The position numbers and the translations under genes were made by a program. Below are positions 16,420-28,882 of a DNA stretch of 64,000 nt, one piece after another; the first letter of the stretch is position 1; each line of letters opens with the position of its first letter. The notes under the pieces are model-generated. The model saw only the letters and a program-made list of their open reading frames with translations. It was not told the DNA's origin and searched no databases. The DNA lies in assembly GCF_030149505.1 (NCBI RefSeq), contig NZ_JASBRN010000057.1, forward strand, positions 1 through 64,000, written 5' to 3'. This DNA comes from Nocardioides sp. Its GTDB lineage: Bacteria > Actinomycetota > Actinomycetes > Propionibacteriales > Nocardioidaceae.

Positions 16420-17096
16420 TCCTGCTCCTGTGCCAGCGCGTTGAGGGCCGACGACGTCATGGCGGAACCGCCCCGACGTCCGCGCACGGTGACGAACGGG
16501 ATGTCGATCCCGTGGTCGACGCGAAAGTCCTCGAGGGCCTGCTTGGACTCGGCGGCGCCGATGAAGCCCACAGGGCAGCCGACGATCGCTGCGGGACGCG
16601 GGGCGCCGTCGACCAGCATCTCGAGCAGGTGGAAGAGGGCGGTGGGCGCATTACCGATGGCGACGACCGCACCTTCGAGGTGCGGCTCCCACAGCGACAC
16701 CGCGGCCGCCGTGCGGGTGGTGCCCCACGCGTCGGCAAGGGCCGGCACCGCGGGGTCGTTCAGGGTGCAGAGCACGTCGTTGTCGGCGGGAAGACGGCTG
16801 CGCGTCACGCCCTTCACCACCATCGTGGCGTCGCAGAGCACGGGCGCCCCCGCCTCCAGGGCCGCCCGGGCGGCCTGCACGAGCTCCCGGTGAATGACCA
16901 GATCGTCGACCAGGTCGACCTGCCCGCTGCCATGGATCATCCGGACGGCCACCTTCTCGGCGTTCACCGGGACCTTCGAGAGGTCAGCCTCGCGGCGGAT
17001 GGTGGCGAACGAGTCGACGTAGATCGCCGGTCCCCGGTCGGTGTAGGGGTAGTGACGCCCCGGACGCCGGGGCTGGAAGGCCGAGGTGGTGCTCAC
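16416..17096 (-). CDS. cobH: Precorrin-8X methylmutase
   Basis: A 226-aa CobH that moves the methyl group from C-11 to C-12 of precorrin-8X, giving hydrogenobyrinic acid. The catalytic His is His55 in VRMIHGSGQVD. Other marks are LCDATMVVKGV, AVVAIGNAPTALF and the C-terminal IVGCPVGFIGAAESK and GRRGGSAM. The GTG at 17096 overlaps the cobG stop as GTGA. The ORF-track start (17417) lies inside cobG and is rejected. Confidence 0.95.
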   Translation of the reverse strand: MSTTSAFQPRRPGRHYPYTDRGPAIYVDSFATIRREADLSKVPVNAEKVAVRMIHGSGQVDLVDDLVIHRELVQAARAALEAGAPVLCDATMVVKGVTRSRLPADNDVLCTLNDPAVPALADAWGTTRTAAAVSLWEPHLEGAVVAIGNAPTALFHLLEMLVDGAPRPAAIVGCPVGFIGAAESKQALEDFRVDHGIDIPFVTVRGRRGGSAMTSSALNALAQEQE

Positions 17097-17938
17097 GGGG
17101 TCTCCTCGGGAATGAGAACGCCACGCCACGGGGTGACGACGAGTGTGGACGCCGCGGCGCAGAGCCGCTCCACGGCGGGACGGTCCAGTCCGTCCTCGGG
17201 CACGGGGACGTGTTCCCCACCGAGGACACGCCCGTACGGAAGTGGTGGTGCTGCGGCGGGTAGGTGTGGGGACGGCGGCACGGACGCTGCCAACGGTGCT
17301 GGTAGCTCGTGGACGTGCCACGGCGCCTGTGGTCCGATGCCCCGGACGTCGAGGAACCGGTGCGCGAGCTGGATCAGGCGACCAATCACCACGTCCAGCC
17401 CGACCACCGGTCCCCACCCCGTGCTGATCCTCAGCTGCGCGGAGTGGGAGTCGAGCACGACGAACCCGAGGTCGCAGGTGCGATCGAGCAGGTCACCGCG
17501 ACCGTCATCGAGCACCAAGAGAAAGCGGCCGGGCAGCGCACCGAGCGCAGGCTCACTCAGCAGGGCAGCGTCCAGTGCCCTCACCATGGGACGTAGGTCG
17601 GCGCGACCGCCGGCCAGTCCCGTCTGGGGCGACGCCATGATGTTCCTCGCCAGGTCGTGCGTTCGGCTGGGAAGGAGGCCCGTGACCTCGAGCGCGTTCA
17701 GCACGTCCTGGGGGAGCTGATCGGTCCCCGGGGTGGCAGGCAGGCCGCGGACCTGAAGATTGGTACGGGTGGTGACGTACACCCGTCCGTCGCCGTGTCG
17801 CTCCGCGAACGTGAGCAGCTCGAGCAGCTCGCGGCACGTCACGTGACCGCCCGGCAGACGCAGTCGGACGAGAAGACCATCGGTCGCGGCCCACGGGCGC
17901 AGGGCGCCAGGACAACGGTCGGGACGTGACCGGATCAC
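17093..17938 (-). CDS. cobG: Precorrin-3B synthase-like protein, short CobG
   Basis: A 281-aa protein of the nitrite/sulfite-reductase-like CobG family. CobG uses oxygen to hydroxylate precorrin-3A to precorrin-3B, the step that marks the aerobic route. The N-terminus is typical (RCPGALRPW, LVRLRLPGG, TTRTNLQVRG, ARNIMASP, RFLLVLDDGRGD). Characterised CobG proteins are longer and bind a [4Fe-4S] cluster; here only four scattered Cys (CPG, TCRE, RTCD, LCAA) and no paired Cys motif are visible. Start GTG 17938 has no clear ribosome-binding site. First gene behind riboswitch 1. It could be a compact working CobG or a derived relative. Confidence 0.82.
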   Translation of the reverse strand: MIRSRPDRCPGALRPWAATDGLLVRLRLPGGHVTCRELLELLTFAERHGDGRVYVTTRTNLQVRGLPATPGTDQLPQDVLNALEVTGLLPSRTHDLARNIMASPQTGLAGGRADLRPMVRALDAALLSEPALGALPGRFLLVLDDGRGDLLDRTCDLGFVVLDSHSAQLRISTGWGPVVGLDVVIGRLIQLAHRFLDVRGIGPQAPWHVHELPAPLAASVPPSPHLPAAAPPLPYGRVLGGEHVPVPEDGLDRPAVERLCAAASTLVVTPWRGVLIPEETP

Positions 17939-19018: not shown

Positions 19019-19064
19019 TCCGACCGCTACACGGGGCGAGAACCCCGGAGGAGGACCCCGGCAC

Positions 19065-22000
19065 ATGGCCGCGTCCGTACACGTCTGCCTGCTCTCCACG
19101 TCCGACACGGACCTGCTCTCGGCCCGGGCAAGCGGCGTGAGCTTCGCGCTGGCCAACCCGGCGCGCAGCACGGACACCGAGCTGGACGCGGTGATCGAGG
19201 GAGCCGACCTCGTCGTCGTCCGCCAGCTGGGCTCGCCCCACGACCTGTGGCACGGACTGTCCGCTGTGCGCGCGTCCGGCACTCCCCTGGTCGTCCTGGG
19301 TGGCGAGCAGCAGCCCAGCGCCGAGCTGATGGAGCTCAGCACCGTCCCGATCGGTGTCGCCGCCGAGGCGCACCGCTACCTGGCCGAAGGCGGTCCGGCG
19401 AATCTCGCGCAGATGCACGCCTTCCTCTCCGACACAGTCCTGCTCACCGGCGAAGGGTTCGAGCCACCGGCGGTCGTGCCGTCGTGGGGCTTCGCCGAGC
19501 GGAGCGCCCCCGCCGACGCGTCGCTGCCGAAGGTCGGCATCCTCTACTACCGCGCCCACCAGACCAGCGGCAACACCGCCTTCGCACACGCGCTGGCGGA
19601 CGCCGTGGACGCCACCGGCCGAGGTGTGGGCGTCCCCATCTTCGCTGGCTCGCTGCGGAGCGCCCCCGACGACCTCTTCGACGCCCTTGGTCAGCTCGAC
19701 GCACTCGTGGTGACTGTCTTGGCCGCCGGCGGCAGCGTCCCGGCCTCGGTCAGCGCAGGAGGTGACGACGAGACCTGGGACGTCGAGCGGATCGCCGCCC
19801 TCGACATCCCCGTCCTCCAGGGCCTGTGCCTGACCAGCAGCCGTGAGGAGTGGGAGGCCAACGACGACGGCGTGACCCCGCTGGATTCGGCGAACCAGAT
19901 CGCCATCCCGGAGTTCGACGGACGCATCATCACCGCGCCGTTCTCCTTCAAGGAGATCGACGACGAGGGGCTACCCCGCTACGTCGCCGACCGTGAGCGG
20001 TGTGCCCGCGTCGCCACCATCGCGGTCAACCACGCCCACCTGCGTCACGTCCCGAACGCCGAGAAGAAGATCGCCCTCGTCCTCTCCGCGTACCCCACCA
20101 AGCACTCCCGCATCGGCAACGCCGTGGGCCTTGACACCCCGGTCTCGACCATTCGCCTGCTCCGACGGCTCCGAGACGCCGGGTACGACCTGGGCGGCCC
20201 CGGCGCCGTGCCGGGCCTCGACCTCACCGACGACACCGAGGCCGGCGACACGCTGATCCACGCCATGATCGCGGCCGGCGGCCAGGACGAGGAATGGTTG
20301 ACGTCCGGACAGCTCACTGACGCTCACGTTCGCATCAGCACCGAGCAGTACCGACGCTGGACCGCACATCTTCCCCAGGCTCTGCGCGACGAGATGACCG
20401 AGGCGTGGGGTGAGGCTCCCGGCTCGCTCTTCGTCAACGAGGCCGACGAGATCGTGATCGCCACGCTGGTCGCCGGCAACGTGGTCATCATGATCCAGCC
20501 GCCCCGCGGCTTCGGCGAGAACCCGGTGGCGATCTACCACGACCCTGACCTGGCGCCGACCCACCACTACATGGCGGCCTACCGCTGGTTGGAGGAGTCC
20601 CCGAACTCAGGTGGTTTCGGTGCCCACGCGGTCGTCCATGTCGGCAAGCACGGTTCCCTGGAGTGGCTGCCGGGCAAGAATGCTGCGCTCTCGGCCGAGT
20701 GTGGCACCGATGCCGTGCTGGGCAACCTGCCGCTCTTCTACCCGTTCCTCGTCAACGACCCCGGTGAAGGGGCCCAGGCGAAGCGACGTGCCCACGCCAC
20801 CATCGTCGACCACCTCATCCCGCCGATGGCGCGCGCCGAGACATACGGCGACATCGCCCGTCTCGAGCAACTGCTGGACGAATACGGCAACATCGCCGCG
20901 ATGGACCCGGCCAAGCTGCCCGCCATCCGTGGCGAGATCTGGCAGCTCATGAAGGCCGCGGAGCTGCACCGCGACCTCGGCCTCGACGAGCGCCCCGACG
21001 ACGAGGAGTTCGACGACTTCCTGTTGCACGTCGACGGGTGGCTGTGCGAGATCAAGGACGTCCAGATCCGCGACGGCCTGCACGTCCTGGGGCAGGCACC
21101 CGCGGACGAGGCACTGGTGAACCTGGTCCTGGCTGCGCTGCGCGCCTCCCAGGTCTGGGGCGGGGTGGGTAACGCCGTCCCGGGCCTCCGCTCTGCCCTG
21201 GGCCTGGGCGAGGGAGCGATCACCGCCGAGGTCGACGCCTTCGAGGCCGAGGCGCGCCGACTCGTCGAGGCGCTGGCCGCGGCGGACTGGGACCCCACGG
21301 TCGTGCCCGGGCTCCACGAGGACGCCGGCGTGCAGGCCGCACTCACCTTCGCCGCCGACGAAGTGGTCCCGCGCCTCGCCAGCACCACCGACGAGATGGA
21401 CACGCTCCTGCACGCCCTCGACGGCGGCTACGTGCCCGCCGGGCCCTCCGGCTCACCGCTGCGCGGCCTCGTCAACGTGCTGCCGACCGGCCGCAACTTC
21501 TACACCGTCGACCCTCGCGCCATCCCCTCGCGCCTGGCCTGGCAGACCGGTCAGGCGATGGCCGAGTCCCTCGTGCAGCGCTACCTCGACGAGACCGGCG
21601 AGCATCCCACCTCGGTCGGCCTCTCGGTGTGGGGCACCAGCGCGATGCGTACCTCGGGCGACGACGTCGCCGAGGTGCTGGCGCTGCTCGGTGTCCGTCC
21701 GGAGTGGGACGACATGTCGCGTCGGGTGAACAACCTGCAGGTGATCGACCTGGCTGAGCTGGGCCGCCCGCGCATCGACGTCACCGTCCGGATCTCCGGC
21801 TTCTTCCGGGACGCGTTCCCCCACGTGGTGGCGATGCTGGACGACGCCGTCCAGCTGGTGGCGGACCTGGACGAGCCGGAGGAGATGAACTTCGTGCGCG
21901 CCCACAGCCGGGCCGACCTGGCCCAGCACGGGGACGCCCGCCGGGCCACGACCCGCATCTTCGGCTCGAAGCCGGGCTCCTACGGGGCGGGCATCCTCCA

Positions 22001-22673
22001 GGTGGTCGAGTCGGGCTCCTGGCGCGACGACAACGACCTGGCCGAGGTCTACACCGCGTGGGGCGGCTTCGCCTACGGCCGTGGCCTGGACGGGGTCGCT
22101 GCGGCCGACGACATGCGTACCGCCTACCGCCGGATCAAGGTGGCCGCGAAGAACGTCGACAGCACCGAGCACGACATTGCCGACTCCGACGACTACTTCC
22201 AGTACCACGGCGGCATGGTGGCCACGGTGCGCGCGCTCACGGGCGCCGACCCGAAGGCGTACGTCGGCGACTCCACCTCCCCCGACTCCGTGCGCACCCG
22301 GTCACTGCAGGAGGAGACGAACCGGGTCTTCCGGGCCCGGGTGGTCAATCCGCGCTGGATCGGCGCGATGCAGCGTCACGGCTACAAGGGCGCCTTCGAA
22401 CTGGCGGCCACCGTCGACTACCTGTTCGGGTTCGACGCCACCGCCGGTGTCGTCCACGACTGGATGTACGAGTCGCTGGCGTCCTCGTACGTGTTGGACG
22501 AGACCAACCAGGACTTCCTGCGCACCTCGAACCCGTGGGCGCTGCGCGGCATCGTAGAACGGCTGCACGAGGCCGCCGAGCGCGGCCTCTGGGCCGAGCC
22601 CGACCCGGAGACGCTGGCCCAGTTGCAGAAGGTCTACCTCGAGGTCGAAGGAGACCTGGAGGACGACGCGTGA
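19065..22673 (+). CDS. cobN: Cobaltochelatase subunit CobN
   Basis: A 1202-aa CobN/Mg-chelatase-H family protein that inserts Co2+ into hydrogenobyrinic acid a,c-diamide with ATPase partner subunits. Family segments include GHKGSLEWLPG-type VHVGKHGSLEWLPGKN, NVLPTGRNFYTVDPRAIPS and RISGFFRDAFPHV. The start is ATG 19065, with GGAGGAGGA 9 nt upstream and directly after the riboswitch; the ORF-track start at 18348 is an upstream extension through the riboswitch. The likely partner is the ChlI-ChlD fusion at 32.7-34.8 kb. GTGA overlap with cobF. Confidence 0.96.
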   Translation: MAASVHVCLLSTSDTDLLSARASGVSFALANPARSTDTELDAVIEGADLVVVRQLGSPHDLWHGLSAVRASGTPLVVLGGEQQPSAELMELSTVPIGVAAEAHRYLAEGGPANLAQMHAFLSDTVLLTGEGFEPPAVVPSWGFAERSAPADASLPKVGILYYRAHQTSGNTAFAHALADAVDATGRGVGVPIFAGSLRSAPDDLFDALGQLDALVVTVLAAGGSVPASVSAGGDDETWDVERIAALDIPVLQGLCLTSSREEWEANDDGVTPLDSANQIAIPEFDGRIITAPFSFKEIDDEGLPRYVADRERCARVATIAVNHAHLRHVPNAEKKIALVLSAYPTKHSRIGNAVGLDTPVSTIRLLRRLRDAGYDLGGPGAVPGLDLTDDTEAGDTLIHAMIAAGGQDEEWLTSGQLTDAHVRISTEQYRRWTAHLPQALRDEMTEAWGEAPGSLFVNEADEIVIATLVAGNVVIMIQPPRGFGENPVAIYHDPDLAPTHHYMAAYRWLEESPNSGGFGAHAVVHVGKHGSLEWLPGKNAALSAECGTDAVLGNLPLFYPFLVNDPGEGAQAKRRAHATIVDHLIPPMARAETYGDIARLEQLLDEYGNIAAMDPAKLPAIRGEIWQLMKAAELHRDLGLDERPDDEEFDDFLLHVDGWLCEIKDVQIRDGLHVLGQAPADEALVNLVLAALRASQVWGGVGNAVPGLRSALGLGEGAITAEVDAFEAEARRLVEALAAADWDPTVVPGLHEDAGVQAALTFAADEVVPRLASTTDEMDTLLHALDGGYVPAGPSGSPLRGLVNVLPTGRNFYTVDPRAIPSRLAWQTGQAMAESLVQRYLDETGEHPTSVGLSVWGTSAMRTSGDDVAEVLALLGVRPEWDDMSRRVNNLQVIDLAELGRPRIDVTVRISGFFRDAFPHVVAMLDDAVQLVADLDEPEEMNFVRAHSRADLAQHGDARRATTRIFGSKPGSYGAGILQVVESGSWRDDNDLAEVYTAWGGFAYGRGLDGVAAADDMRTAYRRIKVAAKNVDSTEHDIADSDDYFQYHGGMVATVRALTGADPKAYVGDSTSPDSVRTRSLQEETNRVFRARVVNPRWIGAMQRHGYKGAFELAATVDYLFGFDATAGVVHDWMYESLASSYVLDETNQDFLRTSNPWALRGIVERLHEAAERGLWAEPDPETLAQLQKVYLEVEGDLEDDA

Positions 22674-25638: not shown

Positions 25639-26424
25639 TCAGGCGACCGCCCTCGGGGTGGTCTCGACCCGTCCGAGCAGCCACGTGAGGGCCATGCCGA
25701 GCGTGGCCCACAGGGCCGCGAGCGTCAGGATCGAGGAGATCCGGAACTCCCACAGCACGTCAGCCGGGAAGTCGCCCAGCTCGTTGACCGCCGGCATGGC
25801 GAGTGCAGCGACGGCGACCACGACGACGTAGCCCACACCGGCCACGACGACGCCCGTCCACGCGCTCCGTTCGGCAGCGAGCCGGCGTCCGAGGACCACG
25901 GCGGCGACCATCGCGACGATCGAGATCAGCGCGAAGGCGAAGTAGTACGCGGTGCGCTCCTCGATGGTGTCACCGCTGCCCACGGCCGGCGGAGCGGCCG
26001 GGTACTTCAGGAAGGGCACCAGCGCGTACGCGACGAACCCGAGGGCGGTCACGAGCGCGGTGGAGGCGACCACCGACAGTCGTCCCAGGCGCCCGGCGAC
26101 GGCGGCGGCGACGAGGGCGATGATGCCGCCCAGGGCGACGCCGATGGCGATGGTCGCGGTGGCCAGGCCCCAGGTCTTCTGGTTGGTGCGGGTGATGCCG
26201 CCCTCCTCGTCGCTGTGAGAGTGAGTGTGGCCCTCCTCGGCGTGGGTGTGGGTGTGCGCCTCGTCCGCGGCGGGCTCGGCGGGAGCCTCCGCGGCTGAGG
26301 CCTCCTCGATGCCGATGGCGGTGTCGATCGGCGGCTCGCCGACCGTGAAGGCCACGACGAAGGCCACGATGCCGGCGATGAGGCCCGCGAGCAGGCCGCG
26401 GACCAGGAATGTACGTGCGTTCAC
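25639..26424 (-). CDS. cbtA: CbtA family cobalt-transport membrane protein
   Basis: A 261-aa membrane protein with about six hydrophobic segments (GLLAGLIAGIVAFVVAF, TATIAIGVALGGIIALVAAAVAG, ALVTALGFVAYALVPFL, FALISIVAMVAAVVLG, GVGYVVVVAVAAL, ILTLAALWATLGMAL). A His-rich loop (HTHTHAEEGHTHSHSDEEG) lies between the first two and probably binds metal. CbtA proteins are predicted cobalt-uptake components that go with CbtB. It lies downstream of cbtB and riboswitch 3, so it should be repressed when B12 is plentiful. Start GTG 26424. Confidence 0.88.
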   Translation of the reverse strand: MNARTFLVRGLLAGLIAGIVAFVVAFTVGEPPIDTAIGIEEASAAEAPAEPAADEAHTHTHAEEGHTHSHSDEEGGITRTNQKTWGLATATIAIGVALGGIIALVAAAVAGRLGRLSVVASTALVTALGFVAYALVPFLKYPAAPPAVGSGDTIEERTAYYFAFALISIVAMVAAVVLGRRLAAERSAWTGVVVAGVGYVVVVAVAALAMPAVNELGDFPADVLWEFRISSILTLAALWATLGMALTWLLGRVETTPRAVA

Positions 26425-26569: not shown

Positions 26570-26803
26570 TCAGTGGCAGGGGTAGCCGAGCAGGTGACGA
26601 CCGTCGTGGACCCACTCGTGGATCGCGCTGCCGGCGAAGAGAGAGACGGCGCCCTGGTCGGTGCTGACGAAGAAGACGACCAGGACCGCGAGCAGTCCGG
26701 CGAACAGGGCCCAGGGGGCGAGCTCGCGCAGGTCGACCGTCGGGATCTCGACGGCGGGAATGGCCGTGGCGCCGGAAAGCGGTGCGGCAACAGAGTGCGA
26801 CAT
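26570..26803 (-). CDS. cbtB: CbtB family cobalt-transport accessory protein
   Basis: A 77-aa protein with a single transmembrane helix (LAPWALFAGLLAVLVVFFV, about 27-45). The C-terminus HEWVHDGRHLLGYPCH is rich in His and ends Cys-His, the typical metal-binding tail of CbtB. It is the first gene behind riboswitch 3 and precedes cbtA. ATG 26803 has GAGGA about 8 nt upstream. Small but well supported by motif and context. Confidence 0.9.
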   Translation of the reverse strand: MSHSVAAPLSGATAIPAVEIPTVDLRELAPWALFAGLLAVLVVFFVSTDQGAVSLFAGSAIHEWVHDGRHLLGYPCH

Positions 26804-26827
26804 GTTTCCTCCTCAGGGTTCTGCGCC

Positions 26828-26936
26828 CTGGTGATGTGGGAATGGACGAACGCCTGGGTCTGACTTCACCGACTGACGTCGGTGTCACAGCAGCGCGACT
26901 GTGCCGGATTCACACCGGCTTCCATGGCGTTCGCTC
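26828..26936 (-). promoter_or_regulatory. Cobalamin riboswitch 3 (cbtB-cbtA)
   Basis: Minus-strand core motifs are AAGCCGGTGTGAATCCGGC, CGCGCTGCTGTGA and AAGTCAGACCCAGGCG, with a hairpin CACCGACGTCAGTCGGTG between the last two. A TACGCT -10 (26947-26942) lies just upstream. It ends about 25 nt before the cbtB start. Confidence 0.9.
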
Positions 26937-26996
26937 GCGACAGCGTACGACGTGGAGCGCCCCGGTCCAGCGCCGCCCCACGGACTGGTACGTTGC

Positions 26997-27180
26997 GTGT
27001 CGCCGTGGTGCACGGGAAGCCGGTGGAAGACCGGCGCGGCCCTCGCCACTGTGAGCGCGGAGCTGCGCGACCTCGTCGGTGCTGAGGCACCGAGGCCACT
27101 GGACCGGCAGGTCCGGGAAGGCCCGTCGGGCAGTGTGGATGCGCGAGCCAGGAGACCGGCCACGGCGTGTTCACATCCAC
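26997..27180 (+). promoter_or_regulatory. Cobalamin riboswitch 4 (CbiX-like/ferredoxin gene)
   Basis: Plus-strand core motifs are AAGCCGGTGGAAGACCGGC, CGCCACTGTGAG and, after a long variable arm, GAGCCAGGAGACCGGCC. It begins about 60 nt from riboswitch 3 on the other strand, so the two form a divergent pair. A TACGTT (26991-26996) is a possible -10. The RNA ends about 20 nt before the ATG. Confidence 0.9.
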
Positions 27181-27203
27181 GAGGTGCCTGGAGAACAAGC
27201 CCG

Positions 27204-27893
27204 ATGACCACCCACGTCCTGGTGGGCACGTCGCCCGCCGACGCCACCCGCCACGCCGAGCTCGTGACGACCGCCGGGCAGCTGGGAGCCGACCTGGCCT
27301 TCCTGCAGCTGGCCTCCCCCTCCCTCGGGGAGGTCCTGGACCGGCTCGCCGCCCGGCGCGAGACCTCGGTGACCCTCGTCGGGGTCTCGAGCGGGCTGGG
27401 TGGGCCGGGCGTCTCCTGGCTGCGCCGGATCGCGGCTGACTGGTGGCGCTCGTACGGCGACGGCGCGCCTGAGGTCCGTACGGCCCCCGCGTTCATGGAC
27501 GACGTCCGGGAGTGGAAGGCGCTGGTCGACCTGGCCCGACCCGTCACCCTCGGCGGAGCCGGGCTGACGTCAGCGGCGTGGGAGGACGTCCCCGAGCACC
27601 GTCACCAGGTGCTGGTCTGTCGTGGTCCCAGGTGCACCGTCCGGGGCGCGGAGGACAGCTGGAAGGCGTTGGTGCTGGGTCTGATGCGGGCAGGTCAGGG
27701 GGACGACGACGTCCTCGTCACGCAGACCGGGTGCCAGTTCCCCTGCAACCACGCACCGGTCGTCGCCGTGCAGCCCGACGACGTCTGGTACGGCCGCGTG
27801 GACGAGGCTGCGGCCGACGAGATCGTGGCCACGCACCTCGTAGGCGGCACCCCCGTGGAACGTCTGCGGTTGCCGCGACGTCGTCGGGCCTGA
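27204..27893 (+). CDS. Degenerate CbiX-like chelatase domain fused to a thioredoxin-like [2Fe-2S] ferredoxin
   Basis: A 229-aa protein of unknown function. Residues 1 to about 125 resemble CbiX/SirB cobaltochelatase halves (VLVGTSPADATRHAEL, LAFLQLASPSLGEVLDRLAA), but the HGS start motif and the later His of that family are absent. Residues about 134-215 are a thioredoxin-fold [2Fe-2S] domain with Cys139, Cys144, Cys177 and Cys181 (CRGPRC, GCQFPC) and VWYGRVDE. The gene has its own cobalamin riboswitch, which ties it to B12 metabolism. Possible roles are cobalt handling or electron supply to a cobalamin enzyme; both are inference. ATG 27204 has GGAG at 10 nt. Confidence 0.78.
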   Translation: MTTHVLVGTSPADATRHAELVTTAGQLGADLAFLQLASPSLGEVLDRLAARRETSVTLVGVSSGLGGPGVSWLRRIAADWWRSYGDGAPEVRTAPAFMDDVREWKALVDLARPVTLGGAGLTSAAWEDVPEHRHQVLVCRGPRCTVRGAEDSWKALVLGLMRAGQGDDDVLVTQTGCQFPCNHAPVVAVQPDDVWYGRVDEAAADEIVATHLVGGTPVERLRLPRRRRA

Positions 27894-27910: not shown

Positions 27911-28882
27911 CTACCGGACGGGGTTCGGTCGCACGGCGCGCAGGAGCCCACCCGCGGCGGCGGCCAGCGCTGAGGCAGCCAGTGCGGCGACGGTTCCGAC
28001 GTGGGTGGCGAGCCCGGTGGCTCGTACGACGACGTCCGGGGCGGGCGGGGGCCCGTCCCCCATGGTGGGTCGGTGCTCGACGCGGTCGCCGTACCGGTTG
28101 GTCCCTCCCAGGGTGATGCCGAGGGCGCCGGCGAAGGCGGACTCTACGACGCCGCCGTTGGGGCTCGGGTGTCCTGCGGCGTCGCGCCGCCACACAGCCA
28201 GGGCGGCGGTTGCCTGTCGAGGCCGCGCGACCAGCACGGCCAGGCCTGCCAGTCGCGACCCGGGCAGGTTGACCAGGTCGTCGAGGCGGGCCGACGCCCA
28301 CCCGAAGTTCTCGTACCGGGGGTTGCGGTAACCGACCATCGCGTCCAGGGTGTTGGCCGCCCGGTGGGCCAGGAGGCCCGGGATGCCTGCGATGGCACCC
28401 CAGACGAGCGGTGCGGTGACGGCGTCGGAGGTGTTCTCGGCGACCGACTCGACCACGGCCCGGGTGATCTCGCCCGACAAGAGCGTGGTCGTGTCGCGCC
28501 CCACCAGGTAGGTGAGGCGGTGCCGTGCCCCGGCGAGGTCGTCGGCGGCGAGGAACTCGTGTACGGCCAGGGCTTCGCGCTCCAGGCTGCGACCGCCCAG
28601 GACCGTCCAGGTCGCGGCGGCGGTGACCGCGGTGTGCGCCAGGGGACGCTCGCGGGTGGCGCGTTCGAGGGGGGCCCCGAGGGCAGCGCTGGCACCGACG
28701 AGCACCGACGTGTACAGCACGCCGCGGGCCCGCGAGTCGGCGTACAGGCTTCGTTCGAGGCGGGTGGCGAGGGTGCCGAAGCTGGCGACGGGGTGGCCGC
28801 GGCGTGGGTCGCCCAGGAGCCGGTCGGCGGCGAAGCCGAGCAGGAGTCCTGCGGCTCTCGTCGCCCCGCGCGGAGAGTTCAT
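27911..28882 (-). CDS. cobD: Adenosylcobinamide-phosphate synthase
   Basis: A 323-aa CobD/CbiB membrane protein that joins adenosylcobyric acid to (R)-1-amino-2-propanol (phosphate). Marks are the N-terminal FAADRLLGDPRRGHPV, VESVAENTSDAVTAPL, AANTLDAMVGYRNPRYENFGW and the late GGTNRYGDR. Several hydrophobic segments are present. Start ATG 28882 overlaps the cobBC stop as ATGA. It is the last gene of the riboswitch-5 operon. Confidence 0.93.
   Translation of the reverse strand: MNSPRGATRAAGLLLGFAADRLLGDPRRGHPVASFGTLATRLERSLYADSRARGVLYTSVLVGASAALGAPLERATRERPLAHTAVTAAATWTVLGGRSLEREALAVHEFLAADDLAGARHRLTYLVGRDTTTLLSGEITRAVVESVAENTSDAVTAPLVWGAIAGIPGLLAHRAANTLDAMVGYRNPRYENFGWASARLDDLVNLPGSRLAGLAVLVARPRQATAALAVWRRDAAGHPSPNGGVVESAFAGALGITLGGTNRYGDRVEHRPTMGDGPPPAPDVVVRATGLATHVGTVAALAASALAAAAGGLLRAVRPNPVR

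Follow-up and report, generated by a model that had tools for sequence, protein, structure and literature searches.

We found that a gene in the cobalamin cluster of a Nocardioides sp., within a window of 64,000 nucleotides (the whole stretch of DNA that was analysed), encodes a 229-residue protein in which an inactive CbiX-type chelatase half is joined to a thioredoxin-like [2Fe-2S] ferredoxin. Since this fusion gene travels with cobalt/B12 importers and cobN, its product is probably a redox helper of the cobalt supply for B12. The specific reading that we favour, with a probability of roughly 0.4, is that the protein works in the cytosol as a redox accessory in acquiring cobalt for late, CobN-type insertion, probably by reducing imported Co(III) complexes. 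The parts of the protein are known folds, and a description of a CbiX-type/ferredoxin fusion was not found in the literature searched.

Domain architecture of the fusion protein

The fusion gene runs on the forward strand from an ATG at 27204 to a stop codon ending at 27893. Pfam CbiX (PF01903) matched residues 13–59 of its product with 14.8 bits, below the 22-bit gathering cutoff, whereas two distant relatives from another class scored above it (33.2 and 38.5 bits), and a match at E ≤ 0.1 was obtained in 13 of 26 relatives. In an AlphaFold model built from the 26-sequence alignment (mean pLDDT 76), the N-terminal half was mostly at 80–97, while the linker and the first cluster loop were modelled poorly. 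Foldseek placed the N-terminal half (about residues 1–112; 27204–27539, +) on CbiX 3lyh (E 3.8e-4) and CfbA 6m29 (E 9.8e-4), and also on 8i57; furthermore, in a 70-residue alignment of a distant relative with CfbA, Arg takes the place of the first His. These fold matches, together with the CbiX/CfbA similarity of the distant relatives, identify the N-terminal half as a degenerate class II chelatase half. We fetched 35 relatives and aligned 26 sequences. None of the 26 contains the HGS motif; M, T or L stands where the chelatases have their first His, and no conserved His was present in the region of the second. The invariant residues of this half are S71, W72, R75, W80 and R82, and a new conserved cluster of His, Cys or Asp was not found there in the alignment. 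Thus, the fusion protein shares with the class II chelatases CbiX-S, CfbA and SirB (PF01903) the fold of residues 1–112, with sequence similarity that is clear in the distant relatives, but differs from them in the absence of HGS and of both His residues, in its invariant S-W-L and R75, W80 and R82, and in the attached ferredoxin. Among CbiX proteins, Bacillus megaterium CbiX-L likewise has an Fe-S centre, but its centre is of the 4Fe-4S type, the protein contains an MXCXXC motif, and it is described as an active chelatase (Leech 2003, as cited in PMC7242693).

The C-terminal half (residues 127–225; 27582–27878, +) matched Pfam 2Fe-2S_thioredx (PF01257) over residues 127–209 (E 2e-7, 31.4 bits against a cutoff of 24.8) and the Aquifex ferredoxin 1f37 (E 2e-14), and Foldseek also placed it on the Aquifex [2Fe-2S] ferredoxin. 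Its four Cys residues, arranged as C139-x4-C144...C177-x3-C181, are invariant in the 26 aligned sequences, as are W126, H134 and the CRGPRC motif. The four Cys fit a predicted [2Fe-2S] cluster. The protein resembles the thioredoxin-like [2Fe-2S] ferredoxins (Aquifex Fd 1f37/1m2a, the NuoE family) in the four Cys and the fold of this half, and shares the C-x4-C spacing with NuoE; unlike them, it carries a CbiX-type half in front and belongs to cobalt/B12 operons rather than to NADH dehydrogenase or hydrogenase genes. The metal-binding His residues being absent, the fusion protein is predicted not to be a chelatase, and judged by its sequence it is not a plain ferredoxin either. An earlier note on this DNA had described a CbiX/SirB-like half without HGS and the second His, followed by a thioredoxin-like ferredoxin with Cys139/144/177/181, and both descriptions were borne out, including the structural similarity to CbiX.

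Riboswitch and gene neighbourhoods

The window contains a cluster for aerobic cobalamin synthesis with late cobalt insertion, comprising cobM, cobIJ, cobH, cobG, cobN, cobF, cobQ, cobK, cbtA, cbtB, cbiB, cobB-cobC, cobO, cobA, chlID and cobL; several of these names were checked by domain, and the rest were read from translations. A cobalamin (AdoCbl) riboswitch aptamer at 26989–27178 (+; RF00174, 87.6 bits, E 3e-20) ends 25 nt before the ATG of the fusion gene, which is preceded by GGAG 10 nt upstream, so that the span 26997–27893 first singled out combines riboswitch and gene. The next gene, cbiB (27911–28882, −; PF03186, E 8.8e-91), is convergent, and the riboswitch thus serves the fusion gene alone. 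Back to back with it lies the AdoCbl riboswitch of cbtBA (26805–26950, −; RF01482, 51.9 bits), followed by a small membrane protein gene at 26570–26803 (−), assigned as cbtB-like by its position between cbtA and this riboswitch and by its recurring pairing with cbtA in relatives, and by cbtA for a predicted cobalt transporter (25639–26424, −; PF09490, E 2.7e-73), the divergent neighbour. The large subunit of the late cobaltochelatase is encoded by cobN (19050–22673, +, start approximate; TIGR02257, 1118 bits), which in relatives often follows immediately 3' of the fusion gene. The dedicated riboswitch emphasised by the earlier note does precede the fusion gene only, but such an element is not unusual here, as the same cluster holds four other cobalamin-riboswitch matches, including the AdoCbl-type one of the divergent cbtBA. 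A search of the organism's own genome gave five cobalamin riboswitches above the Rfam cut-off, among which that of the fusion gene scored highest, plus the weaker cbtBA one, and no paralogue of the fusion gene, which is single-copy. One cobalamin riboswitch outside the window (G000, contig C12:75424-75664; L068) lies upstream of a ribonucleotide reductase-like gene.

The CobG of the window (17093–17938, −) is short, as are those of six other loci (L008, L012, L014, L015, L018 and L023); at about 265–301 aa they end without the C-terminal [4Fe-4S] domain. Short CobG was also seen at carrier-free loci such as L137, L147 and L154, while the full-length CobG of G626 and G585 has the C-x5-C...C-x3-C [4Fe-4S] domain. 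Since the CobG stop codon overlaps the GTG start of cobH, the short form is not a frameshift artefact.

BtuFCD-like genes (Peripla_BP_2, FecCD and ABC ATPase), CbtAB and/or cobN were found within 1.5 kb of the fusion gene at 70 of 73 distinct loci (BtuFCD-like at 47, CbtA/CbtB at 14, CobN at 24). One of the remaining three has CobK/CobQ, and two adjoin a COG0523 GTPase. A same-strand riboswitch stands upstream, either immediately before the gene or in front of its operon, in 29 of 34 named relatives. The typical order is riboswitch-BtuF-BtuC-BtuD-gene-CobN-CobF; riboswitch-BtuF-gene was seen in Tsukamurella, riboswitch-CbtB-CbtA-gene at L010, and riboswitch-gene-BtuF-BtuC-BtuD at L072 of a distant class. 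The assignment of the protein to B12 physiology in the earlier note agrees with these counts, homologues being found overwhelmingly in cobalamin or cobalt contexts. At one locus (L073, 9491–13574) a relative is followed by BtuF-BtuC-BtuD, a riboswitch was not detected, and a Fur-family regulator and a COG0523 GTPase adjoin, so that metal control rather than AdoCbl control is possible for this relative. At another, in a distant actinobacterial class (L074, 4872–16944), the relative lies between a COG0523 GTPase gene and genes for an amidase and a nitrile hydratase, with CbtA 6 kb away. The alpha subunit of this nitrile hydratase contains VCTLCSC, which we take to be the cobalt-type motif, and no corrin gene was seen at the locus. 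This context, from one genome and a relative at about 33% identity, therefore points to cobalt rather than corrin. Cobalt is the common denominator of all contexts of the fusion gene.

Distribution of the fusion gene

Among 250 genomes of the window's family, the fusion gene was present in 77 and cobN in 155. All 77 carriers have cobN, whereas none of the 95 genomes lacking cobN has the fusion gene (Fisher 4.8e-21 over the 250 genomes, uncorrected for relatedness). In addition, 22 of 22 further carrier genomes have cobN, in most of them away from the fusion gene. The carriers are soil actinobacteria. Because all carriers possess cobN and genomes without cobN lack the fusion gene, the gene goes with de novo synthesis in which cobalt is inserted late, and a role in salvage only is ruled out by the 0 of 95. 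Phylum-wide, full-length relatives occurred in 6 of 397 genomes, many other matches covering the ferredoxin half only; this rules out a universal actinobacterial B12 enzyme.

Of the 155 cobN genomes, only half have the fusion gene. At one locus (L163, 2214–2585, −) a relic of it, comprising the start and about 14 codons, follows an intact riboswitch-BtuFCD-like set, which shows a recent loss of the fusion gene with the BtuFCD-like genes kept. The fusion gene must thus be dispensable or replaceable. Among cobN genomes, CbtA and CbiM are as frequent in carriers as in non-carriers, ruling out that one cobalt transporter was swapped for another.

Within genus g2, 12 of 20 carrier-free genomes and 3 of 14 carrier genomes encode FhuF_C-type [2Fe-2S] proteins close to cobN or BtuFCD (p 0.04). 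Such proteins, with the pattern CCLxYR...C..C, recur in the family's cobalamin clusters: they are encoded beside cobN or BtuFCD at L153, L157, L176, L177, L178 and L185, and FhuF-like genes stand directly before cobG in five carrier-free genomes (L154, L167, L179, L180 and L182). An FhuF_C-type protein and the fusion gene co-occur in two genomes (L201 and L207), and several FhuF genes stand before a riboswitch rather than behind it; for these reasons, the contrast is suggestive only. FhuF is a cytosolic [2Fe-2S] protein that acts as a ferric-siderophore reductase on an importer-delivered metal complex (PMC8068687). The fusion protein, with its predicted cluster, would likewise be a cytosolic [2Fe-2S] protein going with FecCD-type importers, and FhuF_C proteins occur at like loci. 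It differs in its unrelated sequence and fold and in its metal, presumably cobalt; Pfam gave no match to FhuF_C (PF11575, CC...C..C) in the window protein, whose Cys pattern is different.

Candidate roles in cobalt supply

The gene context favours roles in cobalt handling and cobalt reduction, both among the guesses of the earlier note. For the redox accessory of cobalt acquisition that we favour, we infer the ligand, the electron transfer and its direction, and the physiological substrate as follows. The ferredoxin half would carry the [2Fe-2S] cluster. The CbiX-fold half, having lost the metal-binding His residues and kept an invariant stretch rich in Trp and Arg, would most likely bind a cobalt complex (or a metallated corrinoid) without inserting metal. 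The cluster would donate electrons to the bound cobalt and reduce it from Co(III) to Co(II), and cobalt imported by the BtuFCD-like system or CbtAB would thereby become usable by CobN; the step would resemble the action of FhuF on Fe(III)-siderophores. AdoCbl would switch the gene off through the riboswitch. This reading is favoured by the fold and the Cys residues, the importer and cobN loci, the recurrent operons, the co-occurrence with cobN, the nitrile hydratase context, the FhuF contrast, the absence of CobW described below, and the precedent of CbtJKL of S. meliloti, which imports Co(II) as a BtuF-like ABC system controlled by an AdoCbl riboswitch (PMC7689651). Against it stand the cobN genomes without the gene, the deletion at L163 and the equal CbtA and CbiM frequencies. 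Furthermore, the BtuFCD-like importer may transport a corrinoid, the CbiX fold points to a tetrapyrrole as the ligand and not to a free-metal chelate, the nitrile hydratase context comes from a single genome, and the FhuF contrast is weak. In a broader version, which is possible but doubtful, aerobic B12 makers would take up cobalt as an oxidised complex via BtuFCD-like or CbtAB systems, and its reduction to free Co(II), destined for CobN, would fall to either the dead chelatase-ferredoxin fusion or an FhuF-type protein.

The main rival to the reduction of a cobalt complex is a corrin reductase, in which the CbiX-fold half would bind a cobalt-corrinoid and the [2Fe-2S] half would reduce it, eventually as far as the Co(I) that CobO adenosylates; the protein would take the place of CobR, acting on both the CobN product and imported corrinoids. 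We consider this unlikely. A tetrapyrrole-binding fold without metal-binding His would suit such a role, and the gene adjoins cobN and the BtuFCD-like importer. The earlier note held that no step in the known aerobic pathway needs such a protein, which is not supported, as the pathway is known to require that Co(II) be reduced to Co(I), a task of CobR (PMC7242693), and for mycobacteria no cobR is listed (PMC8192938). CobR would share this candidate role with the fusion protein but is a flavin enzyme, and Pfam and PDB searches detected no flavin-reductase domain in the window protein. Salvagers would need cobalt reduction too, yet the fusion gene is missing from every cobN-lacking genome of the family, as it is from half of the B12 makers, and no corrin gene accompanies the distant relative at the nitrile hydratase locus. 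In addition, unless an adenosyltransferase is coupled to it, a [2Fe-2S] ferredoxin may not have a potential low enough for Co(II)/Co(I).

CobW is the known cobalt chaperone for CobNST. The fusion protein could instead take Co(II) from the importer to CobN in CobW's place, with the ferredoxin half serving for binding or sensing rather than electron transfer, a role that appears quite improbable. Cobalt as the only common context and the COG0523 GTPase neighbours of distant relatives speak for it, as does the finding that a CobW-type GTPase (E ≤ 1e-30) occurred in no cobN-positive genome among the 250 of the family. CobW is, however, absent from carriers and non-carriers alike, so that cobN genomes without the fusion gene lack it as well and the comparison does not discriminate. 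Moreover, the N-terminal half has lost both metal-binding His of the chelatase fold and has no conserved set of metal ligands, which makes a pure chaperone less likely; the four conserved Cys all fit the [2Fe-2S] cluster, and Pfam found no G3E GTPase domain with a CxCC motif (CobW type) in the window protein.

Electron supply to CobG, also proposed in the earlier note, with the [2Fe-2S] fusion protein standing in for the [4Fe-4S] domain lost from the family's CobG, is weakened to the point of being very improbable: the window CobG (281 aa) and other family CobGs do end after '..VTPWR..' without the C-x5-C...C-x3-C motif, and FhuF-like genes directly precede cobG in the five carrier-free genomes, but cluster-less CobG occurs in carrier-free genomes too, and CobG matches span the full or nearly full model in the carriers Tsukamurella, Sciscionella, Streptomyces sp. 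MJM8645 and N. limicola. Replacement of the lost domain was rejected, as presence of the fusion gene and form of CobG do not track across cobN loci of carriers and non-carriers.

The fusion family is a single-gene, riboswitch-marked candidate for the feeding of cobalt to CobNST in aerobic actinobacteria without CobW, and also a candidate for corrinoid cobalt reduction where no CobR is known. It would show that a chelatase fold has been reused as a non-catalytic ligand-binding module, and it is relevant to B12 production strains. Reductive cobalt release, if true, would parallel for cobalt the reduction of siderophore iron.
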